Origin: Chitinophagaceae bacterium T5-Br10_B2g13 | GTDB lineage: Bacteria > Bacteroidota > Rhodothermia > Balneolales > Balneolaceae | DNA: 32,380 bases | NCBI GenBank assembly: GCA_001564065.1 | Contig: LKNA01000035.1 | Span: 1-32,380, forward strand | Direction: 5' to 3' | Shown here: positions 7,428 through 32,200 of the stretch, in pieces | Position numbering within the stretch: the first letter of the stretch is position 1 | How the letters are laid out: the number at the start of each line of letters is the position of its first letter | The notes under the pieces: generated by a model | The model's input: the letters and a program-made list of their open reading frames with translations, nothing else | Databases searched by the model: none | Told to the model about the DNA's origin: nothing | Translations under genes and position numbers: made by a program

Positions 7428-7440
7428 CTTTTACAGAAGG

Positions 7441-11955: not shown

Positions 11956-12031
11956 AGTGCTTTTCCAAAAAGAAGTGTAAGGAATCTTGATTTCCGGTTT
12001 CATATAGAAAAGAGTAATAAATCGGAGAGCA

Positions 12032-14517: not shown

Positions 14518-15015
14518 TCAGTTTCTATTTCGGTTTTTAAGTTGCTCTTTTGATGGTTCCTTCACGCCCAATGGCTCAACGATCCAGGTTGTATTTTCAC
14601 GGTATTGGATTCGTACTTTTTCACCGGCTTTGATTGTGCCTTCAAGAGATTTGGCTCTCCAGCTTGTTCCATTAAGCCGAATTTTGCCGTTGTTATTCTC
14701 ATCATTGATCTCTTCGATAACATCTACAATTTGATCCATGGCCTCATAATCTTCATCCGCAAACTTAAAGTAGCTTTCCGATTTGAAATACTTTTTTAAT
14801 AATGGACGAATCACAATAGTGAGTGCAACAGACAATATCAGCCACACAGCGACGGATGCTCCTGCACCGGATAGGAGGCCGAAAAACCGAAGCACACCGA
14901 CTGTTAATCCACTGAACCCCAGAAACAGAGCAACTCCTCCAGGAAGTGCCAGTTCCAAAAGCATTAACAAAATGCCGCCACCAAGAAAAATCCAGGTAAG
15001 TAAATCTGCATCCAT
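14518..15015 (-). CDS. NfeD-like membrane protein
   Basis: A 165-residue protein of the short NfeD type. Two to three hydrophobic segments at the N-terminal end (about 7-28, 30-48 and 53-70, with LTWIFLGGGILLMLLELALPGG) are followed by a cytoplasmic or periplasmic OB-fold domain at about 100-155 (GKIRLNGTSWRAKSL...IKAGEKVRIQYRENTTWIVEPL). NfeD proteins are nearly always encoded beside SPFH genes and are thought to be their membrane partners. That is the case here: it is first in the operon, with the first SPFH gene starting 2 bases downstream. It lacks the serine-protease domain of long NfeD proteins. It is divergent from kbl across 259 bases in which I see no feature. Confidence 0.9.
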   Translation of the reverse strand: MDADLLTWIFLGGGILLMLLELALPGGVALFLGFSGLTVGVLRFFGLLSGAGASVAVWLILSVALTIVIRPLLKKYFKSESYFKFADEDYEAMDQIVDVIEEINDENNNGKIRLNGTSWRAKSLEGTIKAGEKVRIQYRENTTWIVEPLGVKEPSKEQLKNRNRN

Positions 15016-15274
15016 AAAGTATGAATAGATTGATGTTTTTTGGTTAGATAGGAATTTGTACGGTCAAAGTCTACAAAAGTTACTCAACTTATTACGATCT
15101 CTTGATGATCTAATACATACATCTACTTCTTCAAATAAATTGAAACCGGTAGCCAGTATTTAAAAGATGACTTTATAATACCCGAATATGATTTTCATCT
15201 GCCAAAACACTCCTCATTTTTTCTTATTTTCAGTCCGAAAAACAGAGCAACTCATCAAATAAATCTGCCATAAT

Positions 15275-16465
15275 ATGTATTCAAATCTGAAAGACGATCT
15301 TCAAGCTGAACTGGATCAAATCAAAAAAGACGGGCTCTACAAAGAGGAACGCGTTATTACTACACCACAGGGCGCGGTCATCAAAACGACGAAAGGGGCT
15401 GAAGTAATCAACTTTTGCGCAAATAACTATCTCGGATTGTCATCTCACCCGCGAGTGCTTGAAGCTGCCAAAAAGACGATTGATGAGTACGGTTATGGAA
15501 TGTCGTCTGTTCGATTTATTTGCGGTACACAAACGATCCACAAGGAACTGGAAGCAAAACTATCTGAGTTTTTAGGCACCGAGGATACCATTCTCTACGC
15601 TGCGGCTTTTGATGCAAACGGAGGTGTTTTCGAGCCACTTCTTGGAAAAGAGGACGCCATTATTTCCGATCAGCTGAACCACGCTTCTATTATTGACGGA
15701 GTTCGATTGTGCAAGGCGCAGCGATATGTGTATAAGCACAACGATATGGCGGATCTTGAAGAGCAGCTGAAAGCAGCTTCCGGCGCGCGGACAAAAATTA
15801 TCGCCACAGATGGAGTTTTCTCGATGGACGGAACTATTGCCCAGCTCGACAAGATTTGCGACCTGGCCGATAAGTATGATGCATTGGTGATGAGTGACGA
15901 GTGCCATTCTACCGGATTTGTCGGAAAAAACGGTCGTGGAGTACACGAATACAGAGATGTAATGGGACGAGTGGATATCATTACCGGAACCTTGGGTAAG
16001 GCACTTGGAGGTGCATCCGGTGGATTTACGGCTGCCCACAAAGAGATTGTAGATATGCTGCGTCAGCGTTCACGTCCATACCTTTTTTCAAACACGCTGG
16101 CTCCTGCCATCACCGGGGCATCCATTGAAGTGTTGAAGCTGTTGAGTGAAACAACAGAATTGAGAGACAAGCTGGAGGATAACACTACCTACTTCCGAAA
16201 AGCGATGACAGATGCCGGTTTTGATATCAAACCTGGGAATCATCCGATTGTACCGGTGATGTTGTACGATGCAAAAGTATCGCAGGATTTTGCTGAAAAG
16301 CTGCTTGAAAAAGGGATTTATGTGATAGGGTTCTATTATCCGGTTGTACCAAAAGGCGAAGCAAGGATTCGGGTTCAACTCTCAGCAGTGCACGAAAAAG
16401 AGCACCTCGATAAAGCGATTGAAGCATTTACGGAAGTGGGTAAGGAATTAGGCGTTTTGAAGTAG
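15275..16465 (+). CDS. kbl: Glycine C-acetyltransferase (2-amino-3-ketobutyrate CoA ligase)
   Basis: A 396-residue PLP enzyme of the alpha-oxoamine synthase family, at the normal length. It cleaves 2-amino-3-oxobutyrate with CoA to give glycine and acetyl-CoA. Evidence: [14 protein letters not shown] (46-59), His136 (NHAS) that stacks on the cofactor, [10 protein letters not shown] (208-217, Asp208 and His211), and the PLP-binding Lys242 in [17 protein letters not shown] is preferred over the related AONS (BioF) and ALAS enzymes because of [18 protein letters not shown] and because the next gene is a threonine dehydrogenase, the previous step in the same pathway. A palindrome lies between the two, so they may be partly uncoupled. 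Confidence 0.95.
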
Positions 16466-16474
16466 TCTGACCGA

Positions 16475-16551
16475 ATTTCCAAGCTCCAAATAACAAATTC
16501 CAAACTTTAAAATAGAACCTGTTTGGAATTTGGTGCTTGTGATTTGGAAGT
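16475..16551. repeat. Intergenic palindrome, AAATTCCAAAC word family
   Basis: AAATTCCAAAC (16495-16505) is exactly complementary to GTTTGGAATTT (16521-16531) across a 15-base loop. Outer parts extend the pairing imperfectly, with TTTCCAAGCTCC on the left and GGTGCTTGTGATTTGGAAG on the right. It sits between kbl and tdh, starting about 10 bases after the kbl stop. It lacks a T run, so it may be an mRNA-shaping hairpin rather than a full terminator. Same design as the other word-based palindromes in this window. Confidence 0.7.
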
Positions 16552-16642
16552 TAATTCAATTCAATTACCCTAAGTCTTCTCCATATTTACAGGAGGGGAG
16601 ATATCTACCATAACTGAAAAATGAGATAACTAAAACTGTACA

Positions 16643-17599
16643 ATGAGCAAGATTTTAATTACCGGTGCCTGCGGACAGCTGGGAAGTGAGCTGACCACTG
16701 AACTCAGAAAAATTCACGGCACGGATAATGTGATTGCATCCGATATCCGTGAGGCAAATGATCAAATAGGTGACGGCCCATTTGAGCATTTGGATGTGAT
16801 GGATAAAGCACGAATCGAAGAGGTAATCGAGAAGTATAATATTACGGTCATTTATCATCTTGCTGCGCTTCTTTCAGCCAACGCTGAAAAAAATATTGAA
16901 TTGGCGTGGAAGCTCAATATGGATGGCCTTCTCAATGTGCTGAATATTGCGAGGGAGAAAAATTTAGAGCGAATTTTTTGGCCAAGCTCCATAGCCGTTT
17001 TTGGTCCCGATGCACCCAAAAATGATACGCCGCAAAACACCGCAACCAATCCAACCACGGTTTACGGAATTACGAAAGTGGCCGGTGAGCAGTGGTGTGC
17101 CTATTTCTACAATAAGTTTGGCGTGGATGTGCGAAGCCTGCGCTATCCGGGACTGATTGGCTACAAATCCCTGCCCGGTGGCGGTACAACCGACTACGCT
17201 GTGGATATTTATCACAAAGCACTAGCCGGCGAGACGTTTTCATGTTTCCTCGAAGAAGATGCAGCGCTCCCAATGATGTACATGAGCGATGCAGTAAAAG
17301 CGACGATTGACCTGATGCAGGTGCCCGAAGAGAATGTGAAAGTGCGAACCAGCTACAATGTGGCGGCTATCAGCTTTAACCCGGCAGAAATTGCGGACTC
17401 CATCATAAAACAGCTTCCCGGATTTGAAATTGAATATGCCCCGGACTACCGGCAAGAGATCGCATCTTCATGGCCCGACAGCATTGATGACTCTGCGGCA
17501 CGAAGTGATTGGGGGTGGAAGCACGAGTTCGACCTCGACAAAATGACAGTAGATATTCTCGAAAACCTACCAATAATTATTGAAAAAGCAGAAAGCTAA
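16643..17599 (+). CDS. tdh: L-threonine 3-dehydrogenase, short-chain/extended SDR type
   Basis: A 318-residue NAD-dependent enzyme of the epimerase-like (extended SDR) family. Evidence: the nucleotide-binding TGACGQLG (7-14, GxxGxxG), Asp34 that would bind the NAD ribose (IASDI), the SDR catalytic Ser115-Ser116 region (WPSSIAVFG), and Tyr141-xxx-Lys145 (VYGITK). SDR-type threonine dehydrogenases (as in Flavobacterium and Cupriavidus) share PGGGTTDYAVDIYHKAL and the C-terminal SWPDSIDDSAARSDWGW seen here. They are unrelated to the zinc-containing E. coli Tdh. It oxidises threonine to 2-amino-3-oxobutyrate, the substrate of Kbl encoded just upstream. Function is strongly supported by both sequence and neighbour. 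Confidence 0.93.
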   Translation: MSKILITGACGQLGSELTTELRKIHGTDNVIASDIREANDQIGDGPFEHLDVMDKARIEEVIEKYNITVIYHLAALLSANAEKNIELAWKLNMDGLLNVLNIAREKNLERIFWPSSIAVFGPDAPKNDTPQNTATNPTTVYGITKVAGEQWCAYFYNKFGVDVRSLRYPGLIGYKSLPGGGTTDYAVDIYHKALAGETFSCFLEEDAALPMMYMSDAVKATIDLMQVPEENVKVRTSYNVAAISFNPAEIADSIIKQLPGFEIEYAPDYRQEIASSWPDSIDDSAARSDWGWKHEFDLDKMTVDILENLPIIIEKAES

Positions 17600-17605
17600 T
17601 AATCT

Positions 17606-17740
17606 GTGAAACTCTGCGTAAACCTCTGCAAGAATCAGCGAGAAAGATAATCTGCACTATAAACCGGAATACTATTCTAAACGAAAGTTAGGGACTCTCG
17701 CAGAGTGGCGCAGATGACCCGCTGAGTTTCGCAGAGTGTA
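17606..17740 (+). repeat. CTCTGCG long palindrome, copy A
   Basis: Left arm words GAAACTCTGCG, AACCTCTGC and AATCAGCGAGAA (17608-17644), a central spacer with TCTGCACTATAAACCGGA and TTCTAAACGAAAG, then right arm words CTCGCAGAGT, GGCGCAGATGA and GAGTTTCGCAGAGTG (17696-17738). The arms fold on each other imperfectly. It starts about 7 bases after the tdh stop and fills most of the gap before the TRIC gene. Confidence 0.85.
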
Positions 17741-17791
17741 CCGTGCCATTCCGTTATTCCGTGGCAACTTAAACCTCAGAATTTTGAGTTA

Positions 17792-18415
17792 ATGTCCATC
17801 CAACCCGAACAAATCATCCTCATCATAGAAGCAGCCGGCACGTTTGCCTTTGCAGTTTCCGGGGCAACAGCTGCCATCCGGAGCCGGTTTGACCTGTTTG
17901 GGATCTTTGTACTGGCTTTTGTCACTGCAATTGGTGGCGGAACCATTCGCGATCTTCTGATCGGTAACCTGCCTGTAAACTGGCTGACCGATACGTTGGC
18001 CATTACCTCAGTCATAGCCGGCTTTATTTTTACGCTTCTCATCTACCGGCGAATGAAAAAACTGGAAGGCTGGCTTTTTGCATTTGACGCTGCCGGACTC
18101 GGACTGTTTACCGTGATGGGAACTCAAATTGGTTTGGAAGCGGGGATGAGTGTTGGAATCTCAATCGCTTTGGGAACGATCACAGGCTGTTTTGGCGGGG
18201 TGATTCGGGATGTACTGGCAGGGGATAAACCCCTGATCTTTCAGGAAGAAATCTATGCCATCGCCGCTATCACTGGTGGAATAATATTTACCCTGATTTT
18301 GCACTTCTTTGATGCACTTTTTGTGGCTCAATTAACCGGAATCGTAGTTATCGTGTTAATCCGCGTGATTGTGGTGCGCTATAAAGTGGGCCTTCCGAGG
18401 ATGAATGTTGACTAA
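17792..18415 (+). CDS. TRIC-type cation channel family protein (UPF0126/YicG-like)
   Basis: A 207-residue membrane protein with about seven hydrophobic segments. It is built of two related halves, each with a signature GGG-T/V-IRD loop: GGGTIRDLLIG (48-58) and GGVIRDVLAGDKP (135-147). Both loops are followed by hydrophobic helices, as in the trimeric intracellular cation (TRIC) channel family; bacterial members form trimeric pores for monovalent cations, probably potassium, with Lys/Arg-Gly-rich kinks in the helices. Length is normal (about 200). The true partner or trigger is unknown. It stands between copies A and B of the long palindrome, and converges with the AlkA-like gene. The ATG at 17792 fits the first helix and no better start is seen. 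Confidence 0.88.
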   Translation: MSIQPEQIILIIEAAGTFAFAVSGATAAIRSRFDLFGIFVLAFVTAIGGGTIRDLLIGNLPVNWLTDTLAITSVIAGFIFTLLIYRRMKKLEGWLFAFDAAGLGLFTVMGTQIGLEAGMSVGISIALGTITGCFGGVIRDVLAGDKPLIFQEEIYAIAAITGGIIFTLILHFFDALFVAQLTGIVVIVLIRVIVVRYKVGLPRMNVD

Positions 18416-18480
18416 AGGCTGCATGAAGGTAGGTGTATGTTTAGTGCAGTTTGTTAGATTTGGATAATTTTGAGAAAACT

Positions 18481-18619
18481 ACTCCGCGAACCTCTGCGTA
18501 AAACTCTGCGATAATCAGCGAGAAAAATGATCTGCGCTAAAAAACGAAACATTAATCTTAACGAAATTTTCTGGTTCTCGCAGAGTTGCGCTGATGAACC
18601 GCGGAGTTTCGCAGAGGTT
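18481..18619 (+). repeat. CTCTGCG long palindrome, copy B
   Basis: AACCTCTGCG (18489-18498) is exactly complementary to CGCAGAGGTT (18610-18619), and imperfect pairing continues inward through AAAACTCTGCG and ATAATCAGCGAGAA on the left and TTCTCGCAGAGT, GCGCTGATGAACCGCGGAG on the right. The spacer (TGATCTGCGCTAAAAAACGA, then CATTAATCTTAACGAAA) resembles that of copy A. It sits between the convergent TRIC and AlkA-like genes and ends 1 base from the AlkA-like stop codon, a natural place for a two-way terminator. Confidence 0.88.
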
Positions 18620-18620
18620 T

Positions 18621-19565
18621 TTAACCGCGATTTTTCTTTTGGTTGATGACGTAGTTTACAAACAGAAACTCGATCGCTGCCGCTTCATATCCTTTCCAGT
18701 TTTTGATCAGTTCCAGAAACTTCTCCTCTGATGTGTTGTCAGGATCACCTCCATAACTCATGATGATCCATTTTCTCAATCCTTTCTCTTCACCGCTTTT
18801 CATGTTGCTCGGGAAAACAGCTTCGGTTGTTTCGCGGAAGAGCATCAGGTCCTGTGCAGATGTAGGTCCGATGCCCCGAACTTTTGAGATCTTATCATAA
18901 AACTCCTGCGGTCCGGCCTCTCTGTCCAGGTAATCCAGATCCGCTTCACCCGCCAAAATATCCTGTGCGAGTCCCACCATGTATTCCCCTTTTCTGAGTG
19001 TGGGACCCATCTTTCGGATCTGAGCCGGGTCTGCCTTGGAAAGCTGAAACGGTCGCGGCCAGGCGGGTAGGGTCTTCCCGTTGTGAGTTAGGTGCGTCCC
19101 GTAAGCCTCCCGGACTTTGAACGCCATCTTCTTGGCAGTCGGTTTATGTGCCATCTGCATCTGAATGATTCGGTTCATGATATCCTCGAGAAGCGTTCCG
19201 CGCGACATCCGCTTCAGCCCATAAAACTCTGTCAGTTTGGAACCAAGAACCGGATCGTTTTCAGCCTGATCATAAAGAGGTCGCAGGTCAAGGTGTGTAC
19301 CTAAAATCCTTGCTAAAGTCTGATTTGCCTGATTGATCTCATCATTGCTCAAATCTTCAACTGTTTCGATGTGAAACTCCGGCTTTTCCGGATCTCCGTT
19401 AAAAAAGACAGTCGTAATGATATCCCGATCATCAAGTGGAATCGGCCGTGTGAATCCCTCCTCAAAAATAGTTTCGGGGTCGTGCTCATGGTCGAAGTAG
19501 TTTTCTACATCTAGGCAGATAAACCAGTCGTGCGGCGGGATGGATTTGAGAGTCCAGGAACTCAT
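18621..19565 (-). CDS. AlkA-like DNA glycosylase-fold protein (HhH-GPD superfamily), catalytic Asp not seen
   Basis: A 314-residue protein with the two-part plan of AlkA-type 3-methyladenine DNA glycosylases. The N-terminal part (about 1-100) fits the AlkA_N beta domain. The C-terminal part has DPVLGSKLTEFYGLKRMSRG (104-123), a helix-hairpin-helix KVRGIGPTSAQDLMLFR (228-244), and a final NWKGYEAAAIEFLF (289-302) matching the usual W-x-P-Y-R-S-Y-A-A tail. In active enzymes the hairpin is followed by FP-x-x-D, where the Asp attacks the sugar. Here it reads FPSNMKSGEEKG, with no Asp; Glu259/Glu260 are the nearest acids. The usual GQQ-type motif is also altered (IIQMQMAHKP). It is either a divergent glycosylase or a DNA-binding relative without activity. 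It is alone in its operon. Confidence 0.75.
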   Translation of the reverse strand: MSSWTLKSIPPHDWFICLDVENYFDHEHDPETIFEEGFTRPIPLDDRDIITTVFFNGDPEKPEFHIETVEDLSNDEINQANQTLARILGTHLDLRPLYDQAENDPVLGSKLTEFYGLKRMSRGTLLEDIMNRIIQMQMAHKPTAKKMAFKVREAYGTHLTHNGKTLPAWPRPFQLSKADPAQIRKMGPTLRKGEYMVGLAQDILAGEADLDYLDREAGPQEFYDKISKVRGIGPTSAQDLMLFRETTEAVFPSNMKSGEEKGLRKWIIMSYGGDPDNTSEEKFLELIKNWKGYEAAAIEFLFVNYVINQKKNRG

Positions 19566-20157
19566 TTTGTAGCAGTTTTAAGTTGAGCAATATTTATTGA
19601 ACAAACTATGTAAGATTACATAATCGTTCGGTCAGAATTAAACAGAAACATGTAGCTAAATAATCATATCAAATATTGATCATATGGGATAATTTGCCAG
19701 CTGTAGAACTCAATTCGAAATTTTGATGAAAGGGAATTAGAGAATCGAACGGCTTTAGTTAGATTTTCGATAGTAGGTATGAAAAATGCTCCAACCATGC
19801 ATAAATATTTTTGTTCAGATTTAACTGATAGATGAATTAGAAAATTTTTCTTTTTTAATAAGCGAATAAATCGGTGTAAATCTTTTTCCTCAATGTTTTT
19901 AAAACAAAACTGAACCAATTCTTTTTTTCTTGGTTTTCGATTTAAACACTACATAAGTGTAATTTTTTCAGGAGTAAGTTTAGGTAGTCTTGTTTCCATG
20001 ATCTCCCTTTTCTTATTTAATGGTTTAATCGTAAGAAACGGGTTGTATTAAATCCTTACAGCAACTTCGTAAATCAATGGATTAATCATGTTGTTGCGAT
20101 TTCCTTTTTCTTTGTGGTTATTTCTTTTGAACCCAACGTTAATCACACTCTAATCTC
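19566..20157. other. AT-rich intergenic region
   Basis: A 592-base gap between the divergent AlkA-like and S9 peptidase genes, clearly more AT-rich than its surroundings. It holds one weak open frame on the minus strand (19664-19918, listed separately) and presumably both promoters. I see no tRNA, repeat copy or clear palindrome. The last 60 bases before the S9 start have no strong Shine-Dalgarno sequence. Confidence 0.5.
19664..19918 (-). CDS. Doubtful small hypothetical protein
   Basis: An 84-codon open frame starting at TTG, with no ATG or GTG alternative before an upstream stop. The predicted protein is basic, begins MVQFCFKNIEEKDLHRFIRLL and has amphipathic character. It does not match any family I know. 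The surrounding DNA is unusually AT-rich, where long frames are less likely by chance, which argues slightly for a real or decayed gene. No clear ribosome site precedes it apart from an A-rich run. It could also be noise. Confidence 0.28.
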   Translation of the reverse strand: MVQFCFKNIEEKDLHRFIRLLKKKNFLIHLSVKSEQKYLCMVGAFFIPTIENLTKAVRFSNSLSSKFRIEFYSWQIIPYDQYLI

Positions 20158-22137
20158 ATGGCTCAACTACGTTTTTTCCTTCTAATTACTCTTCTTTTCA
20201 TCATAACCGGAATTCAATCCATCTATTCGCAGGCTGTCATTGAAAGCTGGACACCGGAAGCAATGGTGAATCAGCCTGTTGTGGGATCACCGGCTGTTTC
20301 ACCGGACGGATCGATGATTGCATACACCATTCGTGAAACAAAGATGGAGGGTGAGGATTCTGAATTTCTTTCACACATCTGGGTAGCGTCAGCCGATGGC
20401 GCGATGAATCGCCAGTTTACCCGGGGCGATCAATCCGTATCGAATCCACAGTTTTCACCGGATGGTCAGTTTCTATCATTTACATCCCGTAGAAATGGTG
20501 AAAACCAGGTTTATCGAATGTATTTGAACGGTGGTGAGGCCGAACAGATAACCCATGCAGAAAATGGAGTTGGAAGCTATGCATGGTCGCCCGATGGAAA
20601 CCGGATTGCCTACACGATGAGAGATGCTGAGACAGAAGAAGAAAAAGAGCGTGCACGGGAAAAACGTGATGTAACCGTAGTTGATACAAACTTTAAGTTC
20701 TCCAGAATATATGTTCAAACGGTTGGTGAAGATAGCGCAAAAGCGATTTATGGTGATGACGTCCACACAGCGTCGTTCGATTGGTCGCCGGATGGCTCCA
20801 CAATTGTATTTGCCCATCAGCCGACTCCCAAAATTGATGACCGCTACAAAATGGATATCTCCACGGTGCCGGCCGACAGCGGAGCGGTAACCTCACTTAT
20901 CGATTGGGAAGGAACGGACAGCTCCCCAAGATATACTCCGGATGGAAATTCGGTGGTGTTTACCTCTCATGGCGGTGAGCTGGAGGCGATTGGACTGCAG
21001 GATCTTTATGTAGTTAATGTCTCGAGTGGGGAAGTCCGCGCACTGGCTCACACTTATGACAGGAATGCGAGCATCGTTGGGTTTGATGCAAACGGTCGAT
21101 TACTGATTCAGGAGCCGAGAAGAACGGTGTCAGCGCTTTATCGTGTGCCTCTGAATGGGTCAGAGCCGAGGCTGTTAACCCCAGAGGATGGAATTTATCG
21201 CGGATTTTCGGTGAGTGACGATGGCAATAGAGTTGTTTATACCTACCAGAACTCCAATCAGCCCTCTGAAGTTTACTATAGTGATCTGGGACGGTTTTCG
21301 AAACAGAAAGTGTCCACACTACATGACGAGTCTCAATTTCCAGAAATGGGCCGGACTGAACTTCTGACCTGGACATCTGATGACGGAATGGAGATTGAAG
21401 GATTGCTCACCTATCCAGTTGGTTATGAGGAGGGTGATCGTGTGCCTTTAATTTTGATGGTGCACGGCGGCCCGGCCGGAGTCTATTCACAAACCTGGAC
21501 GGGTGGAGGAAGCATTTACGCAATTCAATATTTCGCTGAAAAGGGATACGCGTTGTTGCGGCCAAATCCCCGCGGAAGTACCGGGTACGGCAAGGAGTTT
21601 CGCTATGCCAATTTTCAGGATTGGGGATACGGTGATTACGAAGACCTGATGACAGGTGTGGATAAAGTGATTGAGATGGGCGTTGCTGATCCCGATCGAC
21701 TGGCCGAGATGGGGTGGAGCTATGGCGGTTACATGACCTCATGGATCGTATCACAAACGGACAGGTTTAAAGCGGTGAGTATGGGTGCCGGATTGTCGAA
21801 CCTGGTGAGTATGGTGGGAACGACAGATATTCCGGGCTATCTGCTTGGTCACATGGGCGGGCCGTACTGGAATGGAAATATGGAGACGTATGAGCGTCAC
21901 TCTGCCGTCTATTTTATGGACAATGTGGTTACGCCGACTCAGATTATTCACGGATCAGGTGATCTGCGGGTTCCTCTGGGACAAGGCCAGGAGTTCTATT
22001 GGGCGCTTCAGGAGAAGGGCGTGGATAGCGAAATGATTTTGTTGCCCCGAACCGGACACGGCCCAACCGAGCCTAAACTAATTGCCGAAGTATCAACCCG
22101 GATTCTTCAGTGGTTTGATAAGTATATTGAGCGGTAA
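20158..22137 (+). CDS. Exported S9 family serine peptidase (acylaminoacyl/dipeptidyl peptidase type)
   Basis: A 659-residue secreted enzyme. A signal peptide (about 1-25, FFLLITLLFIITGIQSIYSQA) is followed by a beta-propeller domain (about 35-390) with repeated PD40-type strands such as AVSPDGSMIAYTI, FSPDGQFLSFTSRR, WSPDGNRIAYTM and YTPDGNSVVFTS. The alpha/beta hydrolase domain (about 400-659) has the catalytic triad Ser521 in GWSYGGY, Asp602 in HGSGDLRVP and His634 in TGHGP, plus the oxyanion segment HGGPAG. The propeller restricts entry to peptides in this family. It likely degrades oligopeptides outside the cytoplasm together with the M20 enzyme downstream, an inference from order and export. 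The start ATG is followed directly by the signal peptide. Confidence 0.94.
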   Translation: MAQLRFFLLITLLFIITGIQSIYSQAVIESWTPEAMVNQPVVGSPAVSPDGSMIAYTIRETKMEGEDSEFLSHIWVASADGAMNRQFTRGDQSVSNPQFSPDGQFLSFTSRRNGENQVYRMYLNGGEAEQITHAENGVGSYAWSPDGNRIAYTMRDAETEEEKERAREKRDVTVVDTNFKFSRIYVQTVGEDSAKAIYGDDVHTASFDWSPDGSTIVFAHQPTPKIDDRYKMDISTVPADSGAVTSLIDWEGTDSSPRYTPDGNSVVFTSHGGELEAIGLQDLYVVNVSSGEVRALAHTYDRNASIVGFDANGRLLIQEPRRTVSALYRVPLNGSEPRLLTPEDGIYRGFSVSDDGNRVVYTYQNSNQPSEVYYSDLGRFSKQKVSTLHDESQFPEMGRTELLTWTSDDGMEIEGLLTYPVGYEEGDRVPLILMVHGGPAGVYSQTWTGGGSIYAIQYFAEKGYALLRPNPRGSTGYGKEFRYANFQDWGYGDYEDLMTGVDKVIEMGVADPDRLAEMGWSYGGYMTSWIVSQTDRFKAVSMGAGLSNLVSMVGTTDIPGYLLGHMGGPYWNGNMETYERHSAVYFMDNVVTPTQIIHGSGDLRVPLGQGQEFYWALQEKGVDSEMILLPRTGHGPTEPKLIAEVSTRILQWFDKYIER

Positions 22138-22241
22138 CCGCCAAGGGCGCTAAGTACGCCAAGGTTATGCACTGTGCGAGAAATAGGATTTTTTGGTTCT
22201 CGCAGAGTCCCGCTGATGAACCGCGGAGTTTCGCAGAGGTA
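22138..22241 (+). repeat. CTCTGCG long palindrome, copy C (mosaic left arm)
   Basis: The right half (22195-22241: GGTTCTCGCAGAGT, CCCGCTGATGAACC, GCGGAGTTTCGCAGAGG) is almost identical to copy B. The left half instead has another word set, CCGCCAAGGGCGCTAAG and TACGCCAAGG (22138-22164), then GTGCGAGAAATAGG. The normal left CTCTGCG words are missing and the spacer is short, so its hairpin would be weaker. It starts immediately after the S9 peptidase stop codon. Confidence 0.8.
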
Positions 22242-22275
22242 TTGAAGTATCTAATCGAAAAATAAACATATCCAC

Positions 22276-23592
22276 ATGAAGAAGATCGTATTCACACTAT
22301 CACTGGTTATGGGTTTGGTAATCATATCAAATTCAGTACAAGCACAATCAGATAATACATTTAACTGGCAGGAGTACATCGACAATCAAACCGAAGAGCT
22401 CTATGAAAAAGTGGTAGAGTGGCGGCGGCATTTCCATCAATATCCTGAGCTGTCGAATCGTGAATATAACACAGCTGAGAAGGTGGCCGAGCATCTTCGA
22501 GATCTGGGAATTGAAGTTCAAACCGAAGTGGCTCATACCGGTGTGGTGGGTATTTTAGAGGGTGGAAAACCAGGGCCGGTAGTTGGATTACGCGCGGATA
22601 TGGACGCTTTGCCTGTAAAAGAACGAGTGGATATTCCATTCGCTTCAGAAGTAATGTCAGAATATATGGGAGAACAGGTTCCGGTGATGCACGCCTGCGG
22701 ACATGATACCCATATCGCCATGTTGATGGGCGTTGCAGAAATGCTGAGTGAAGTAAGAGATGAAATTCCCGGTACGGTAAAATTTATATTTCAGCCTGCT
22801 GAGGAAGGTACACCTCCCGGCGAGGATGGCGGTGCTGAGATGATGGTGGAAGAGGGGGTGCTTAAAAACCCTGATGTGGATGTGATTTTCGGGCTGCATA
22901 TAAGTTCACAAACTCCGGTTGGGCATATCAACTATCGTCCGGGGGGAATTATGGCAGCCTCGAACCGATTCTCGATTGATGTGAAAGGAGTACAAACGCA
23001 CGGTGCACGGCCATGGGGAGGCGTGGATCCGATTGTGGCTTCGGCCCAGATCATCAATAACCTGCAGTCGATTGTAAGCCGGCAGACCGAACTCACCAAA
23101 GAGGCGGCTGTCATTACAGTTGGCATTATCCGGGCGGGTGTTCGCAATAATATTATTCCGGAAGAGGCCTATATGGAGGGTACTATTCGGACCCTGGATC
23201 AGGAGATGCAGGATGTCCTGTTTGAGAAGATGCATCGTACTGTGGAGTACACTGCTAAAAGTTTCGGGGCTGAAGCAACACTGACGATTTATGACGGATA
23301 CCCCATCACATATAATGATCCTGACCTAACAGCGATGATGGCACCCACACTTGAAAAAGTGGCCGGTTCCGATCAGACTCATTTGATTAATGCAATTACC
23401 GGCGCAGAGGATTTCTCATTCTTTCAAATGGAAGTACCCGGTCTCTACTTCTTCATCGGCGGTATGCCGCCTGATATGAATCCTGAAGATGCAGCCCCTC
23501 ACCACACTCCGGATTTCTACTTGGATGAGGAGGGAATGAGAACAGGAATTCGGGCACTGGCCAACCTGACAATCGATTACATGATGAAATAG
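22276..23592 (+). CDS. Exported M20 family amidohydrolase/aminoacylase
   Basis: A 438-residue metallohydrolase of the M20D type (N-acyl-amino acid or peptide amidohydrolase, IAA-amino-acid hydrolase-like). A signal peptide covers about 1-24 (TLSLVMGLVIISNSVQAQ). The metal ligands are in VMHACGHDTHIA (Cys141, His143), QPAEEGTPPGEDGG (Glu176/Glu177), GLHI and the late DAAPHHTPDF; Asp108-Met-Asp110 (LRADMD) is the first conserved acidic pair. The middle dimerisation or lid domain (about 225-335) holds GVQTHGARPWGGVDPI. Being exported, it probably frees amino acids from acylated or peptide substrates in the periplasm. It follows the S9 peptidase, 138 bases apart, with palindrome copy C between them. 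A second, cytoplasmic relative is encoded at 31.0 kb. Confidence 0.94.
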   Translation: MKKIVFTLSLVMGLVIISNSVQAQSDNTFNWQEYIDNQTEELYEKVVEWRRHFHQYPELSNREYNTAEKVAEHLRDLGIEVQTEVAHTGVVGILEGGKPGPVVGLRADMDALPVKERVDIPFASEVMSEYMGEQVPVMHACGHDTHIAMLMGVAEMLSEVRDEIPGTVKFIFQPAEEGTPPGEDGGAEMMVEEGVLKNPDVDVIFGLHISSQTPVGHINYRPGGIMAASNRFSIDVKGVQTHGARPWGGVDPIVASAQIINNLQSIVSRQTELTKEAAVITVGIIRAGVRNNIIPEEAYMEGTIRTLDQEMQDVLFEKMHRTVEYTAKSFGAEATLTIYDGYPITYNDPDLTAMMAPTLEKVAGSDQTHLINAITGAEDFSFFQMEVPGLYFFIGGMPPDMNPEDAAPHHTPDFYLDEEGMRTGIRALANLTIDYMMK

Positions 23593-23733
23593 GAAACTCA
23601 GCGAAACTCTGCGCAAAACTCAGCGATCATCTGCGAGAAAGTAACCTATACTATAAACTGGATCTCTTCTCACAACGAATTCGATGGTTCTCGCGGAGTC
23701 CCGCAGATTAACCGCGGAGCTGTGCCGAAGTAG
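23554..23733 (+). repeat. CTCTGCG long palindrome, copy D, with source of the segmental duplication
   Basis: The palindrome proper is 23593-23733: left arm GAAACTCAGCG, AAACTCTGCGC, AAAACTCAGCG, ATCATCTGCGAGAA; spacer CTATACTATAAACTGGAT and TTCTCACAACGAATT; right arm GGTTCTCGCGGAGT, CCCGCAGATTAACCGCGGAG. It begins right after the M20 stop. Bases 23554-23644 (last 12 codons and stop of the M20 gene, then the left arm) are identical over 91 bases to 25202-25292; similarity continues, with changes, to about 23735. Confidence 0.9.
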
Positions 23734-23807
23734 AGATTCCAAAGTAATCAATTAATGTTTTTAAATAGCGTTTTTGCATTATTACTATAGATTTAGTAAT
23801 TAATGTG

Positions 23808-25187
23808 ATGCGCAATCTCATTTACTTTTCTATATCAGTTTTAATTTTCTTGATAGCAGGTACTGATGCTGTCTCTCAAACCGTAATTCGTGGTAAAGTT
23901 CTCAGTGCAGACGGTAAACCTATTGTCAAAGCAGAGATCTCAACTGTAATTCCGGGTGTTCAGGATATCTTTGCTGATAATCGGATCAGAGTGGATGTTG
24001 CAGAGGATGGTGCTTATCAACTTCACGTCGATCGACCGGGTATTTACAACCTTGCAGTGAGGGGCGTTTTTCATCATACCATGAATATACCGGTGTTAAT
24101 TTATGATCAATCTACACTTGAGATGAATATTTTGATGCTTCCAAGATACTTTAATAATGGGAGGCATTTTGAAAACGAAGATTATCTTCAGTGGATTCGC
24201 GTATTGGGTAATTTCAATAATTTTGATTTTCGCACAGGGGAACAATTCACCCTTAACAGTGATGGTTCTATCTCAGCCATGGTTCCGGTTACATCCGATA
24301 CCATGCGTATTCAGGTGAGAGGGCTTAATTATGGACAGGGAGCCAGTGCAATGCCGCCGGCTGACAGGTATGAACTGCGTCCCGACAACTCATTTGTTTC
24401 GGTTTTATACAGAAACCTCCCTTCTGATTCTCTCGAAATTCGCTATAAACCGAACGAAACGATTCCTTATCGAGGAGTTTTACCAAGTGACAGAAATCCC
24501 AATAGTTTAGTTATAAGAGGATTCCTAACCTTCGAAAATGATCTCGAAAGGCATTGGGTAGAACCGATCACAGCTATGCAGGCGATACCGTTTCGGTACA
24601 AGGTTTTGGATAACAGATTTTCTGAAGGGATTACAAAAGAAGATCAAATGACACTTCAGGATAGAGAAGTTAGATCATTTTTTGATATGGATTGGAATAA
24701 CTCACTCGAAAAAATATCGAATGCCTTGAACATTTCATTACTGCACGAGCAACAGGTAAATCTGCTCCTCCTTGCCTATGCGGGAGTGGTTCATCGTGCA
24801 GCGATTAGCAGAGATCATTTTAAGAGGGTTGAGCGAGATGAAAACATCCCCAAAATTGAGTATAAGCCTGTGATTATTGATAGAATTTTTGATGAGATTG
24901 AGCCCGGACATACGGTCTGGGCCAGAAATCGCCTTTTACCACAATTTCTTCTGGAGCTACAGCAGTTTGATGATCGCCGGATAAACTATTTTACCGATCT
25001 TGTTTTGTACCACAATAACGATGCTCTGGCAGCAAATGTCTCTCAGGCGATAGTTGAAGCTACAGCTCAAAACTATCAATCTGTTGAGCAGCTACCGGTC
25101 TATCAGGCCATTTTACAACGCTTTGGAGAGGGGAGTGTACTCAGGCGGGCAGAGTTGGTGTTTGAACAACAGAACCGAAGAGAATAA
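23808..25187 (+). CDS. Exported protein of unknown function with N-terminal carboxypeptidase-regulatory-like domain
   Basis: A 459-residue secreted protein if it starts at the ATG at 23808; a GTG directly before it would add one residue. The signal peptide (about 1-24, IYFSISVLIFLIAGTDAVSQ) is followed by a beta-rich domain (about 25-112, TVIRGKVLSADGKPIVKAEIST... DGAYQLHVDRPGIYNLAV) of the carboxypeptidase-regulatory-like or transthyretin-like fold. A second beta domain follows (about 135-220, with GSISAMVPVTSDTMRIQVRGL), possibly an E-set or carbohydrate-binding-like fold. The C-terminal half (about 270-459) is mainly alpha-helical without known motifs. It has no thioredoxin or TonB box. 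It lies between repeat copies D and E, whose outer edges are near-identical, so this whole gene is enclosed by the duplicated segment. Function unknown. Confidence 0.8.
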   Translation: MRNLIYFSISVLIFLIAGTDAVSQTVIRGKVLSADGKPIVKAEISTVIPGVQDIFADNRIRVDVAEDGAYQLHVDRPGIYNLAVRGVFHHTMNIPVLIYDQSTLEMNILMLPRYFNNGRHFENEDYLQWIRVLGNFNNFDFRTGEQFTLNSDGSISAMVPVTSDTMRIQVRGLNYGQGASAMPPADRYELRPDNSFVSVLYRNLPSDSLEIRYKPNETIPYRGVLPSDRNPNSLVIRGFLTFENDLERHWVEPITAMQAIPFRYKVLDNRFSEGITKEDQMTLQDREVRSFFDMDWNNSLEKISNALNISLLHEQQVNLLLLAYAGVVHRAAISRDHFKRVERDENIPKIEYKPVIIDRIFDEIEPGHTVWARNRLLPQFLLELQQFDDRRINYFTDLVLYHNNDALAANVSQAIVEATAQNYQSVEQLPVYQAILQRFGEGSVLRRAELVFEQQNRRE

Positions 25188-25201
25188 AAACCGGCGTCAG
25201 C

Positions 25202-25240
25202 GCACTGGCCAACCTGACAATCGATTACATGATGAAATAG
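25202..25240 (+). pseudogene. Copied 3' end of the M20 amidohydrolase gene
   Basis: These 39 bases match the last 12 codons (ALANLTIDYMMK) and TAG stop of the M20 gene at 22276-23592 exactly. No start or rest of the gene is present, so it cannot be expressed as a protein. It is joined to palindrome copy E with the same junction as in the source, showing that gene end and repeat were copied together. The sequence just before it (AAACCGGCGTCAGC) does not match the source, marking the left breakpoint at about 25201. Confidence 0.88.
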
Positions 25241-25381
25241 GAAACTCAGCGAAACTCTGCGCAAAACTCAGCGATCATCTGCGAGAAAGTAATCTAAACT
25301 ATAAACTGGATCTATTCTCACAACGAAATTTGACGGTTCTCGCAGAGTGGCGCAGATGAACCGCGGAGTTACGCAGAGGTA
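25241..25381 (+). repeat. CTCTGCG long palindrome, copy E
   Basis: Left arm identical to copy D (GAAACTCAGCG, AAACTCTGCGC, AAAACTCAGCG, ATCATCTGCGAGAA); spacer very similar (CTAAACTATAAACTGGATC and ATTCTCACAACGAAATTTG); right arm GGTTCTCGCAGAGT, GGCGCAGATGAACCGCGGAG, TTACGCAGAGGTA. Its right arm is closer to the family consensus than that of copy D, so D has drifted, or E was partly converted by another copy. It sits before the metalloprotease gene. Confidence 0.88.
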
Positions 25382-25473
25382 ATCATCCAAGAAATTTGAT
25401 ACTTTCCTCTACTCTTTTACAAGAGAATTGGTATTATCTTATCAGAAATCAAATAGATGAGCCAATCCATTTT

Positions 25474-28401
25474 ATGAAAACAGTAATCTCTCTTTTTCTG
25501 CTGTTCATCATTTTTACAGCAGATCTTTCCGCTCAGGGCTTTAACTCTCTGAATGGCCGTAATCATCCCTACCTGAACTGGCAGGTAGCTGAGACGGAAC
25601 ACTTCAGAATTATCTTTCCTGATCGTATTTCAGAAATTATTCCTCAAGCCGCAGCCGTTGCGGAAGAGAGTTACGCTGCATTGTCCGCAAATCTTGAAGT
25701 GGAGTTTTCAAAGAAAATAAGGATCTATCTTTCGGATGAGGATGAGATCGTCAACGGTTTTGCCAACCCGATCGGAAAAGGCTACACCGCTATCTGGGTG
25801 AACCTGAATGACTATGCCGAAACATGGACGGGTAGTGAAAAGTGGCTTCGGAAAGTGATTGCCCACGAATTGGGACATATTTTCCATTTCAAGGCAGTAT
25901 GGTCCGATTTTGGGCTTTTGAACTATCTAATTGCCGACCCGCTTCCTCGTCACTGGACTGAAGGATTGGCGCAGTATCAGACGGAATATTGGGACTCCCA
26001 GCGTGGAGACCGCTGGCTTCGAAAAGCGATTTTTGACAGCCGGCCGGGATTCAATGATGGCCAATCCATCGAGAACGGAAGGCTGCTCTATGCGGTTGGG
26101 AATTCGCAGCTTCGCTTTTTTACCGAAAAATATGGCGATAGTACACTTGTGAATCTACTTTCGCACAGAGATGATTTTCTGGGAATGAAGTACCACGATT
26201 TTAACAGTGCATTTGATGAAGTAGTAGAGGGCGGGTATCGATCATTCTACGAGGATTGGCGTAAGCATATGAATGTGTACTACAATACTCTTGCATCTCA
26301 GATGGAGCGCACAGACTCTTTGGGAACAGAGTCTGTTTCCTTGCCCGGTCAGTTCTATTACGATGTGGCGGTGAGTCCGGATGGGTCACAGCTGGCCGTT
26401 CTCTCATTGCAGTCGCTTGCCAGGCCCGTTCGTAGCCTCCATATCGTTCAAAACGACTCCACCCGCAACAGCCGGAAAGTGGCTGAGGGCTCAATTAACT
26501 CAGATGTTTCATGGAGTTCCGACGGTTCAGTCCTGTACTACTCCCGAACCGTTCGGGGAGTAAACTCTTCACTGTTGAATGACATTTTCAGCTTGGATGT
26601 AGAGTCGGGAAAGGAGGAACGACTTACACAAAGCCGCAAAGCAAAGTATCCTACACAGGGTCCGCTGAATAATACCATAGCATATATAGTAAATGAAAAC
26701 GGTGTCGGAAATCTTTTTCAGCTTGATTTGGTAACGGGAGAGGAGAGTCGAATTACAAACTACTCCGGCGATGTGCAAACGATACACCCGCTTTGGGTAA
26801 AACGAAACCAGTCGTGGCTGATTCATAAGTTCAATGAAGATGGCAGTCGAAATATGGTGCTGGTCGACCCGCTTTCCGGAAGCGAAACTGTTCTGGACCG
26901 AAATGATACAGACAACAGAAATTTTGTTTTAAGTCCTGATGGCAGCAAATTGGCCTATACATCCCTTCGCGATGAAGTGCCAAATGTGTTTGTGTACGAC
27001 TTTGAATCAGCTGAAGAACGGCGGGTAACCAATCTCTTCACCGGAGGAGAAATTTATGGATGGACGTCATCAGTGGATACGCTCGAGACGGAAAAGTTGC
27101 TGATCAAAGCGAGTGAAACAAAACGAAGGGATCAAGTCTATTGGGTTGATCCGGATAGGGATGTTTTTACTGGCGATGATAGGGTACCTGAAGTCTACTC
27201 GAGCTGGAGACTCAAACAGGCGCCGAATATGATTTCGTCTGTGATTGATCCTGACGAAAGCCTGATTGTTGACCGGTACAAGTATCGACCGCTTCAGAAT
27301 TTGACGCACGCATCAACCATCATTCTGCCTTACTACGCAGATTCGAGAAACTGGGGACTGTTTGGGGTGACCGGATTTACAGAACCGCTGGGTAAACATA
27401 TTTTTGCGGCAACGGGTAATGTTTCATTCGGGAATTTTGATTACTCCTACGGTGTGTTGAGCTACATCAACAATCAGTTTTATCCATCTATTGCTACCTC
27501 GATCTATAAAACTCCGGGAAGCGCCTTTTTTTATGGGGATAAATTTCTGGTTGAGGAGCTGATAGGCGGACAAATTACCGTAAATATACCGGTAGATCGT
27601 TTTGAAGCGCCCTATCAAAACGGGAGTATTTATGCACGATTCCGGCATGTTTTGATTCACCCTTTTGACCGAGATGCTTTCCCCGGTTCATTCCAAGTCC
27701 CGGCTCCGGAGGAAGCGCGGCAAACGGATCTGACGGTTGGATTTCAGATCAAAAAGCAGAGGCCGTGGAGAGATAATGTGATCCACACGCTGGACGGCTG
27801 GGGTGTTCGTGGATTATTGACCGGTGCAGAAAAGATTCTGGGATCAGAAGTGAGATTTGCAACGGCAGACCTAAGCGCATATAAGGTGTTTCCGTCTCTC
27901 GGTCTGCAGCGGTTTTATTTCTATGGACGATATCAGCAGCAGTGGGGATCTCCGTTACTTCAGAACTACATCGGTTTTTCCCGGCTGGATAACATCCATT
28001 TGAGTTTACCTGGAGAAGTGCCGCTCGAGTTGTTTAATCAGGCTGAAAGAGTTCGCGGATACCGGGAGTTTATTGCCGGTGATCGTGTTGCCTTTGGACG
28101 ATTTGAGTACCGGATTCCGTTTCTGCCATCACTGAACACAACTATTCTGGGACTGCTTGATTTAGGAGCAACGTCAATTTCGCTGTTCTCAGACGCCGGT
28201 GTGGTTTGGAATGCAAGGTTTGCAGATGGCACGACCGGCAGAGAGGAGCGATGGGGAGCCGGTGCGGAACTAAAAAATTCACTGAATCTTGCAGGTATCA
28301 GGATTGCCCATGCAGTCGGAATTGCACAGCCTGCGCAGGAGCTTTTTACAGATACTGATTACGATCTTTACTATCGGGTGCGTGCGGTGGTTCCGTTTTA
28401 A
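25474..28401 (+). CDS. Exported HELGH metalloprotease with PD40 propeller and outer-membrane beta-barrel region
   Basis: A 975-residue protein starting at the ATG at 25474, which begins a signal peptide (MKTVISLFLLFIIFTADLSAQG); a longer frame from a TTG at 25396 would bury it. Domain 1 (about 25-280) is a peptidase-MA-like zinc protease: His131-Glu-Leu-Gly-His135, with Glu in HWTEGLAQY as a likely third ligand. Domain 2 (about 290-580) has PD40/TolB-like strands (VAVSPDGSQLAVLS, VSWSSDGSVLYYS, LSPDGSKLAYTS). Domain 3 (about 620-975) alternates beta strands rich in Tyr and Gly, ending YYRVRAVVPF, the aromatic end typical of outer-membrane barrels; VRGYREF recalls Omp85-type surface antigens. 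It may be a barrel-anchored protease exposed at the surface or the periplasm. The exact substrate is unknown. Confidence 0.82.
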   Translation: MKTVISLFLLFIIFTADLSAQGFNSLNGRNHPYLNWQVAETEHFRIIFPDRISEIIPQAAAVAEESYAALSANLEVEFSKKIRIYLSDEDEIVNGFANPIGKGYTAIWVNLNDYAETWTGSEKWLRKVIAHELGHIFHFKAVWSDFGLLNYLIADPLPRHWTEGLAQYQTEYWDSQRGDRWLRKAIFDSRPGFNDGQSIENGRLLYAVGNSQLRFFTEKYGDSTLVNLLSHRDDFLGMKYHDFNSAFDEVVEGGYRSFYEDWRKHMNVYYNTLASQMERTDSLGTESVSLPGQFYYDVAVSPDGSQLAVLSLQSLARPVRSLHIVQNDSTRNSRKVAEGSINSDVSWSSDGSVLYYSRTVRGVNSSLLNDIFSLDVESGKEERLTQSRKAKYPTQGPLNNTIAYIVNENGVGNLFQLDLVTGEESRITNYSGDVQTIHPLWVKRNQSWLIHKFNEDGSRNMVLVDPLSGSETVLDRNDTDNRNFVLSPDGSKLAYTSLRDEVPNVFVYDFESAEERRVTNLFTGGEIYGWTSSVDTLETEKLLIKASETKRRDQVYWVDPDRDVFTGDDRVPEVYSSWRLKQAPNMISSVIDPDESLIVDRYKYRPLQNLTHASTIILPYYADSRNWGLFGVTGFTEPLGKHIFAATGNVSFGNFDYSYGVLSYINNQFYPSIATSIYKTPGSAFFYGDKFLVEELIGGQITVNIPVDRFEAPYQNGSIYARFRHVLIHPFDRDAFPGSFQVPAPEEARQTDLTVGFQIKKQRPWRDNVIHTLDGWGVRGLLTGAEKILGSEVRFATADLSAYKVFPSLGLQRFYFYGRYQQQWGSPLLQNYIGFSRLDNIHLSLPGEVPLELFNQAERVRGYREFIAGDRVAFGRFEYRIPFLPSLNTTILGLLDLGATSISLFSDAGVVWNARFADGTTGREERWGAGAELKNSLNLAGIRIAHAVGIAQPAQELFTDTDYDLYYRVRAVVPF

Positions 28402-28405
28402 AAAA

Positions 28406-28479
28406 AGTATTGGGTAGCGGGTATCGAGTATAAAGTAAACTCCTTTTTACTTGTTACCTGATACTTACTACTTAATACT
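28406..28479. terminator. Palindromic bidirectional terminator, AGTATT/GTATC word family
   Basis: The 20 bases at 28406-28425 (AGTATTGGGTAGCGGGTATC) pair with the 20 bases at 28460-28479 in 19 positions when G-U wobbles are counted. A second inner stem AAGTAA/TTACTT lies in the spacer. It separates two convergent genes (stops at 28401 and 28483), a typical site for a terminator that serves both. No long T run follows, so the strength is uncertain. Same design as other word palindromes here. Confidence 0.65.
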
Positions 28480-28482
28480 GAA

Positions 28483-29262
28483 TCAAATTCCTCTTCTCAA
28501 TCCTCGCTCGGTAAATCGCCAATCCTCAATTGAAGTGTTGATTTCCCTGTCACTCCAGGTGATTTCTGTTTTTCGGTCTTCGCGCAGGTCGTACATCGTC
28601 ATTTTGGCCGGACTCCAGAGCTGATCTGTGATCTGTTCTAAATTTTCAGCTTCCAGTCTCTTAATCTGTTCGCCTTCCTCATTGTAATAGTGAATTTTCT
28701 GAAGCGCGTATTTCTCTTTCAGGATTTCAAACTCTACATAAGCATACTGACCGGATTCGGGTTTGGACGCGCGAACGAGGTAGTATGCTTCATGCTCTTC
28801 AAGCCACTCAAATTCATAATCGTCCGGATCCTGATCGCCGAGATCTTCGTAGGTGAAGTCGCTACCCATAAAGCGGTCACCTCGTTCGGCTGATCCGATG
28901 GTTTGTATTCTTCCGACTGACGGTAGATAAAGACGTTGATCTGTATTTCCATCCTTCCGAACGGTTAAGAATCCCGTGCCTCTTACATTGCCCGGATCGG
29001 AAAATATAATCAGGCTTTTGTTGTTGTCGCCGTCAACTACATTCCAGGATTGCATGGTTCTGGAGCGGGTTCTACCTCTCGGATCGGTAATCACCATCTC
29101 CATTTTTGCCGTTTCAGACTCGATGGAATTTCTGCGATCATCTACTTCCTCAAAAATAGATCGAGCCTGTTCTTCATCTGTGATTCTTTCCTGGGCTGCG
29201 AGCTGATTGGTAAGTGAGAAAAGGAGAAAGCCTGCAAATAAAAAAGTCAGTTTTTTCATCAT
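28483..29262 (-). CDS. LolA-like outer membrane lipoprotein-sorting family protein
   Basis: A 259-residue exported protein with a signal peptide (about 1-23, KKLTFLFAGFLLFSLTNQLAAQ). The rest fits the LolA-like fold used for lipoprotein or lipid carriage: SETAKMEMVITDPRGRTRSRTMQSWN, DNNKSLIIFSDPGNVRGTGFLTVRK, RLYLPSVGRIQTI, MGSDFTYEDLG, then the final WSDREINTSIEDWRFTERGLRRG. The phrase F-x-P-x-x-V/I-R-G-T-G-FL and MGSDFTYEDL are typical of the 'outer membrane lipoprotein-sorting protein' group, which often serves RND-type transporters of the MMPL family. No such transporter is adjacent. Two adjacent ATG codons at 29257-29262 could start it. It converges with the metalloprotease gene. Confidence 0.87.
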   Translation of the reverse strand: MMKKLTFLFAGFLLFSLTNQLAAQERITDEEQARSIFEEVDDRRNSIESETAKMEMVITDPRGRTRSRTMQSWNVVDGDNNKSLIIFSDPGNVRGTGFLTVRKDGNTDQRLYLPSVGRIQTIGSAERGDRFMGSDFTYEDLGDQDPDDYEFEWLEEHEAYYLVRASKPESGQYAYVEFEILKEKYALQKIHYYNEEGEQIKRLEAENLEQITDQLWSPAKMTMYDLREDRKTEITWSDREINTSIEDWRFTERGLRRGI

Positions 29263-29322
29263 ATTTGTTCTGTTTTCTGAAAAAACAGCCCGGAATTTTT
29301 AAACGTTCAAATATAGGTCAGT

Positions 29323-32196: not shown

Positions 32197-32200
32197 TTCG

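Follow-up and report, generated by a model that had tools for sequence, protein, structure and literature searches.

Palindromic word arrays in a Balneolaceae genome may be gene-less copies of an element that encodes a GxxExxY nuclease

Five long palindromes built from short words lie between the protein genes of contig LKNA01000035.1 (positions 1 to 32,380, forward strand; this whole stretch of 32,380 nucleotides (nt) is called the window) of Chitinophagaceae bacterium T5-Br10_B2g13, assembly GCA_001564065.1. On balance, we lean to the view that these palindromes are gene-less copies of an intergenic element, the gene-bearing form of which encodes a putative nuclease of the GxxExxY family (TIGR04256 / PF13366) that would read the words of its own dialect. 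In the best reading of the data, they derive from a word-array element linked to a nuclease, as its non-autonomous copies or its relics, and this element would work like the repetitive extragenic palindromic (REP) sequences and their REP-associated tyrosine transposases (RAYTs), with an unrelated nuclease. To our knowledge, repeats of the CACAGAG, CGCAAAG and CTCTGCG types are scattered in bacterial genomes with no agreed role, and GxxExxY is a widespread family for which we know of no function; tying the two together gives both a testable one. No paper linking the word repeats and GxxExxY was found in the open-access literature, a search that did not cover subscription papers and the notes of family databases.

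Each arm of a palindrome is a row of seven-letter words, for example CGCAGAG / CGCTGAT / CGCGGAG / CGCAGAG in a right arm, the left-arm words being of the reverse-complement type. The spacing of the words within the arms of the window is 10-12 nt, in line with an earlier note on this DNA, made from its sequence, which had put it at about 10-13 bases. With the word written as C-R-C-N-R-A-K, a form chosen after the sequences had been viewed, arrays of at least three words spaced 8-13 nt occur nine times in the 32.4-kb window, all at the five palindrome sites, and not once with the word read backward, so that the five copies described in the earlier note are confirmed. The statement that none exists elsewhere in the window holds for this type of word; palindromes of other words are visible by eye at 16474-16552 and 7352-7428 (TTCCAAA type and AAAAGGC type), one of them directly behind the kbl gene.

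All five copies are on the plus strand. The first, c1 (17604-17741; left arm about 17610-17645, right arm 17696-17736), is behind an epimerase gene, c2 (18478-18620; left arm 18480-18524, right arm 18572-18617) is between convergent genes at 17792-18415 (+) and 18621-19565 (-), c3 (22137-22240) is behind an S9 peptidase gene, c4 (23592-23733) is behind an M20 peptidase gene, and c5 (25240-25382) is ahead of a 1001-aa open reading frame (ORF) at 25396-28401. A covariance model was seeded with nine copies (c1, c2, c4 and c5, three from the relative G018 and two from the relative G027). The common orientation that had been proposed for the copies is borne out by scores of 130-152 bits on the plus strand and 42-68 bits on the minus strand for c1, c2, c4 and c5, high values being expected for members of the seed, and by 28.6 bits on the plus strand only for c3 (E 0.001). 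The common word plan applies to the copies generally but not to c3, a composite of CGCCAAG-type words (22139-22163) and a right arm (22193-22239) that lacks both the CTCTGCG left arm and the ACTATAAA centre; its left part reads CGCCAAG-GGCGCTAAG-TACGCCAAG, in right-arm orientation. The centre ACTATAAA-x-x-GGAT also has no exact form in c2. Likewise, not every copy directly follows the end of a plus-strand gene, as had been claimed: c2 starts 63 nt past the upstream stop codon, between convergent genes, and c5 follows a relic of the M20 gene 3' end (25179-25240, matching 23531-23592) instead of an intact gene.

The relic was carried along with c5. Positions 23531-23679 and 25179-25327 match at 92% across 149 nt, and the left arms of c4 and c5 are identical (49/49). 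Both copies also have some 60 nt from the end of the M20 gene ahead of the left arm. In the right arms, 36/46 positions are identical and 10/46 differ. Between the two copies lies a 460-aa ORF (23805-25187), which was not found in the syntenic stretch of G018, where the order is M20, palindrome, 1001-aa ORF. Because of the 92% match and the absence of the ORF from this synteny, c4 and c5 are best read as one local duplication around the 460-aa ORF. Upstream of this ORF (23740-23830; loci L103 and L104), three species have retained a box that resembles TATTACTA-N-TTTAGTAATTA; we would take it, as a guess, for a BlaI-like operator.

The link to GxxExxY started from a lead that we tested, namely that such words go with GxxExxY genes or with genes for S23-type four-helix-bundle proteins. 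Among 98 genomes (the own genome and relatives), the GxxExxY family was found in 51 and the four-helix-bundle family in 65. The own genome has one GxxExxY gene, which stands between CACGGAA-type words and has a degenerate CTCTGCG-type palindrome beside it. When the flanks of GxxExxY genes were scored as inverted repeats, matched flanks in the relatives reached 34.3 compared with 22.1 for mismatched flanks (31 loci; shifted control 18.2, n=115), and the flanks of four-helix-bundle genes gave 32.1 compared with 20.5 (30 loci). The GxxExxY loci of the relatives also contain whole palindromes repeated in the direct sense, with a mean direct score of 62.9. The bracketing extends across phyla: in a set of the best 80 of 517 loci from many phyla, 76 of which were usable (four were dropped for less than 200 nt of flank), the scores were 46.5 for matched and 21.7 for mismatched flanks (shifted control 20.5, n=275), and 47 of the 76 loci were above the 95th percentile of mismatched pairs. 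The words differ (CACAGAG, CACGGAG, CGCAAAG, CGCCAAG, CACGAAG, CACAGAT and others), and their grammar is the same as that of the window words.

A set of 111 loci, including 68 with both arms and 94 with at least three words, was used to describe the arrangement. At 58 of the 111 loci (58/83 with words on both sides), the words closest to the gene point towards it from either side, in inverted arrangement; the remainder comprises 25 loci with two-sided words arranged in some other sense, 20 with words on one side only and 8 without words. The spacing is mostly 8-10 nt (310/355 intervals). It should be noted that the grammar was formulated after viewing loci that overlap this set, and that the word was relaxed to allow A as the last letter in the scans of the 111 loci, of the array regions of the relative G038, of the protein correlation, of G027 and of the Y1 loci, with C also allowed at the fifth letter for the 111 loci and for the dialect-protein analysis. 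When 18 regions of G038 were picked because they contain arrays, 21 arrays were located outside the ORFs (90 aa or longer): 11 in convergent, seven in tandem and three in divergent gaps. A different layout was noticed at G236:C30:42628-44046 (L257), where a GxxExxY gene (43456-43809) is flanked on either side by arrays that recur at intervals of ~47 bp.

The two arms of one locus share a dialect: the per-locus mean agreement is 81.7%, and exchange of arms among different loci lowers it to 53.2% (maximum 59.7%). Furthermore, the distance between word profiles falls as the identity of the GxxExxY proteins rises (r -0.34, 94 loci; kinship was not corrected by a tree). The correlation is -0.24 for pairs below 50% identity and -0.22 for pairs below 40%, for which 13/2000 permutations were as low, and in the cross-phylum set alone, with local G+C removed, r is -0.33 for all pairs and -0.25 for pairs below 50% identity. 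Recognition of the words by the protein would produce such a correlation, and joint inheritance can produce it too. Alignment position 99 (numbered as in L001) is mostly Leu in proteins with CGC words and a different residue in those with CAC words, and is thus a first candidate for contact with the words.

The arrays and the gene also tend to occur in the same genomes. Arrays of three words at a fixed period of 10 were found in 15 of 98 relatives (110 matches, overlaps counted; backward control 3), with a maximum of 48 pattern matches in G038, and 13 of these 15 have a GxxExxY gene. In a phylum sample of 247 genomes, most of them new to the grammar and some of them included in the 98 relatives, 122 match GxxExxY, and arrays are present in 33/122 gene-bearing genomes (120 matches) compared with 12/125 gene-free genomes (55 matches; one-sided Fisher p 3e-4; three matches in 247 genomes for the backward control). 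This pattern misses the variable-spacing arrays of the window itself, so that the own genome has 0 matches.

For the window palindromes proper, the search for further copies that the earlier note had suggested gave a divided result: at E <= 0.01 (115/606 first-look candidates scored), the covariance model found full copies in the 4.3-Mb genome at the five window sites only, yet it found copies in 13 other genomes of the genus, and in several of these the copies surround a gene. When three mismatches at most are allowed, a right-arm pattern is present at eight places of the own genome (backward control 0), five in the window and three elsewhere, one of the latter a lone arm (L009) and two showing both arms in reverse order (L007, L008). 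In the genus, 14/28 genomes have model matches, and all 14 have the GxxExxY gene, compared with 8/14 of the genomes without matches. The copies cluster near the gene: 12 of the 42 distinct sites have a GxxExxY gene on their contig no more than 2 kb away (0.13 expected), or 10/40 when two model members are excluded, and 18/42, among them five model members, have one within 20 kb (1.33 expected). The five sites of the own genome share no contig with its GxxExxY gene.

In G027, large parts of the window gene order are kept. The order is epimerase, transporter, c2-like palindrome, glycosylase, S9 peptidase, palindrome, GxxExxY, palindrome, 1001-aa ORF, and thus a GxxExxY gene between two palindrome copies occupies the c3 site of the window. 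In G018, synteny with the window runs from kbl to the second M20 gene. Of the four gaps that the two genomes share, three are filled by palindromes there and the remaining one, the c3 site, by a right arm, and word numbers differ from those in the window; c1, c2 and c5 have counterparts at the equivalent gaps, and c2 also has one in G027. A second locus of G018, about 12-18 kb beyond the cluster, contains a GxxExxY gene with CGCAGAG-type words, and this locus is the place of the CACGGAA-type gene in the own genome (the pfkB neighbour is 91% identical). In G024 and G003, palindromes of other words were seen by eye around the equivalent genes, and in G011 no palindrome was seen between M20 and the 1001-aa ORF. 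Exchangeable cassettes, as in an integron attC array, were not found, the order from kbl to the second M20 gene being kept in G018 save for the 460-aa and radical-SAM ORFs, which gave no tblastn match or were not queried.

The two G027 copies have left arms with 44/47 identities and right arms with 34 identities, 11 mismatches and 2 gaps. Left arms are better kept in c1 and c2 too (40/48 compared with 73/96 for the rest), and the same holds for c2 and its G027 counterpart (43/48 compared with 78/95). Because orthologous copies show the asymmetry as well, it may be common among these repeats in general and speaks only weakly for copying.

The GxxExxY protein has ~130 aa, and its predicted model has a mean predicted local distance difference test score of 96. 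In an alignment of 29 relatives (A1, which left out two of the 31 loci for stop codons), H14, E23, D63, E73, K75, Q87 and Y91 are among the invariant residues, a set of H, E, D, E-x-K, Q and Y that we take to be the Cas4/RecB motif. The best match among solved structures is SSO0001 (4ic1; E 8e-4, template modeling score 0.62 by query), presumably a Cas4, followed with weaker E-values by LHK-Exo, AddAB and RecE. The Cas4 models of PADLOC matched one of two members weakly (E 5e-4) and the other not at all. The modelled core fold and its D, E-x-K, Q and Y residues thus suggest that GxxExxY is a Cas4/RecB-like putative nuclease of the PDDEXK_3 type. In one published case, a cas4 gene was reported by the pipeline only as GxxExxY (PMC8934634). 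Relatives of one GxxExxY query were found in 8/72,556 plasmid records and 0/50,697 phage records; therefore, carriage by plasmids or phages is not the usual vehicle.

These observations, which show the association of arrays and gene, can be combined into a possible mechanism of inferred recognition, cutting and copying. On DNA, words of its own dialect would probably be the sites that the nuclease binds or cuts, and the inward-pointing rows of words, spaced near one helical turn, could serve as binding arrays for the DNA-bound protein. If a Cas4-like nuclease opened ends at the arrays, their repair could place a copy of the array in an adjacent gap, at times together with the DNA beside it. 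Copying of gene-less arrays would probably occur in trans and target close-by gaps that follow gene ends, with nuclease-triggered repair or template switching as a possible route. Such gaps may simply tolerate insertion. The M20 tail carried with c5 would fit such copying, as a single case. In the lineage of the window, the c3 site may once have contained a copy with the gene that was lost later. If this is true, the seven-nt words are predicted sites of a small Cas4-like nuclease, the natural dialects are ready-made specificity variants, and a second, independently built repeat-plus-nuclease system exists beside REP/RAYT. More tentatively, and with somewhat less conviction than for the window palindromes themselves, GxxExxY proteins could be the word-reading nucleases of an undescribed class of selfish intergenic elements that spans phyla. 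Each nuclease would then have its own dialect of C-R-C-N-R-A-K and act on its inverted arrays as substrate, gene-less arrays would be copied locally to positions behind gene ends, and S23 four-helix-bundle elements, including those in rRNA genes, would be a second branch with this architecture.

Several results weigh against this interpretation. The window copies and the one GxxExxY gene of the genome use different dialects, the protein has no known activity, and no clean filled/empty site, defined ends or target duplication was seen, G018 keeping its copies and G011, G003 and G024 being too diverged at the base level for a comparison of insertion sites. The association is also incomplete, as 29/76 cross-phylum loci are not above the 95th percentile of mismatched pairs, 53/111 loci lack the simple inverted arrangement, the backward control word yields two-word arrays in 38/111 loci, and for 30/42 model matches the contig has no GxxExxY gene within 2 kb. 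Random 20-kb samples contained no array in 400 kb from 20 gene-bearing genomes; neither did 212 kb from 17 gene-free genomes, many of these samples being short, and the density in such samples is uninformative. Finally, neither TIGR04256 nor PF13366 is matched in G225, which has 43 array matches, and one or two array matches each were obtained for 11 further gene-free genomes of the phylum sample. PF13366 was absent from the nine gene-free array genomes that were checked (8 of the 12, G225 included, plus G083), which means that a genome lacking the gene can retain arrays or owe them to another cause. G225 therefore counts against a strict dependence on the gene. Its 43 matches are of the CACGGAT type and form tandem blocks of a few hundred bases (L253-L256), one of which, by eye, adjoins a toxin-antitoxin-like gene pair.

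The arrays of G225 also fit an explanation that needs no word-reading protein: the repeats could be passive, slippage within arms and hairpin template switching between arms would homogenise the words, the genes around them would do no more than tolerate the repeats, and the nuclease gene would be a passenger in the palindromes. The differences in dialect between loci, the likeness of neighbouring copies and the presence of two unrelated gene families in such arrays are in accord with it. We regard it as unlikely, because a common grammar surrounds one gene family across phyla, the dialect is correlated with the protein, and copies are clustered near the gene.

Selection at the level of RNA, with the palindromes as 3'-untranslated hairpins that end or stabilise transcripts and are selected for pairing, appears slightly less probable. 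The copies are located behind gene ends, G018 keeps full copies at three of four gaps and a right arm at the fourth, and eight of ten single copies fold better than their own shuffles (z -2.3 to -7.2), the exceptions being c3 (z -0.5) and c4 (z -1.1). However, the covarying RNA stems envisaged in the earlier note were not found, within the limited power of nine related sequences: RNAalifold predicted 23 pairs with 0 compensatory changes, and a word-by-word structure gave 85.6% paired cells compared with 85.9% in shuffles, a covariation score of 0.040 compared with 0.044, and one pair changed on both sides compared with 1.2. At the 68 GxxExxY loci with both arms, comparison of the k-th word from the inside across the arms gave an agreement of 608/748 degenerate positions (81.3%), compared with 82.2% after shuffling the word order within arms. 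The arms thus have a common vocabulary but no word-by-word pairing register, and single-armed arrays occur. The structure is also more than a terminator, as had been proposed: 17 terminator-like sites in 15000-32380 (16.4 expected from shuffles) include none inside the palindromes, where a G+C-rich stem followed by a T run is not present. Rfam gave nothing at the gathering threshold in the window.

It is very improbable that the palindromes are REP elements whose movement depends on a Y1 (RAYT-type) transposase encoded in this genome: the genome has eight Y1_Tnp matches, and the gene-end location is as in REPs (PMC3733652), but none of the eight loci is bracketed by the window words and 2/8 have one array somewhere in ~3.3 kb, the well-matching flanks of L353 (score 64) are of another sequence, and the model matches bracket GxxExxY instead. 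Y1 transposases were therefore rejected as owners of the repeats. As had been noted earlier, the window itself has no transposase among its scanned proteins, which represent part of its ORFs.

Of the known systems, REP/RAYT, including REP doublets forming hairpins (REPINs), is nearest in logic to the nuclease-linked element. Inverted flanking repeats, coevolution and dependence on the gene are features of RAYTs (PMC2817692). Both systems have intergenic palindromes behind gene ends and a nuclease gene flanked by inverted repeats (here in simple form at 58/111 loci), repeat and protein change together (here a correlation without tree correction), and the presence of the gene goes with that of the repeat. 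In contrast, the partner gene described here is not a dedicated HUH/Y1 gene but encodes a PD-(D/E)XK, Cas4-like nuclease (PDDEXK_3), rows of seven-nt words in locus-specific dialects take the place of REPs of 20-40 bp, and this genome has about five full copies instead of more than 100. Thus, the palindromes are not members of the REP/RAYT group, on account of nuclease type and copy number. From Cas4, including solo-Cas4, with which it shares the predicted fold and the invariant residues, GxxExxY differs in its length of ~130 aa and in the word arrays that bracket its gene; the terms 'GxxExxY', 'PF13366', 'inverted repeat' and 'palindrom' are absent from the main text of a Cas4 phylogenomic study (PMC5704561).

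Nearest in architecture is the 23S rRNA intervening sequence (IVS) with its S23 ORF. A small ORF inside inverted repeats, open to a 'selfish' reading, is common to both, and S23-type four-helix-bundle genes of the relatives, and one in the window, stand between word arrays of the same architecture. The IVSs sit in rRNA genes and are cut from the RNA by RNase III (PMC4990558), whereas the window copies lie behind protein genes, between which all of them are located, and their main partner is GxxExxY; by location, they are not IVSs. The four-helix-bundle gene of the window (12032-12439; PF05635, 23S_rRNA_IVP, E 3.6e-10) lies between groEL and band_7 and is flanked by words of another dialect (GAACCG / CGGTTC, 11878-12540). 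No groEL match was found beside band_7 in the other 25 band_7 neighbourhoods, some of which are cut by contig ends. In two relatives, four-helix-bundle genes (L045 and L060) have no inverted words (scores 14 and 17), and their flanks look coding by eye, in contrast to those of most other genes of the family. A promoter-like site, TGTAAGG-N-TTTCATA, is present at window position 11976. The corresponding motif TGTAAG-N12-22-TC[AT]TA was found upstream of 0/80 GxxExxY genes in the cross-phylum set, and, among the relatives, upstream of 14/31 GxxExxY genes and 18/30 four-helix-bundle genes, compared with 7/3600 background windows of 220 nt, and the two families seem, from these motif counts, to share a promoter type in this lineage.

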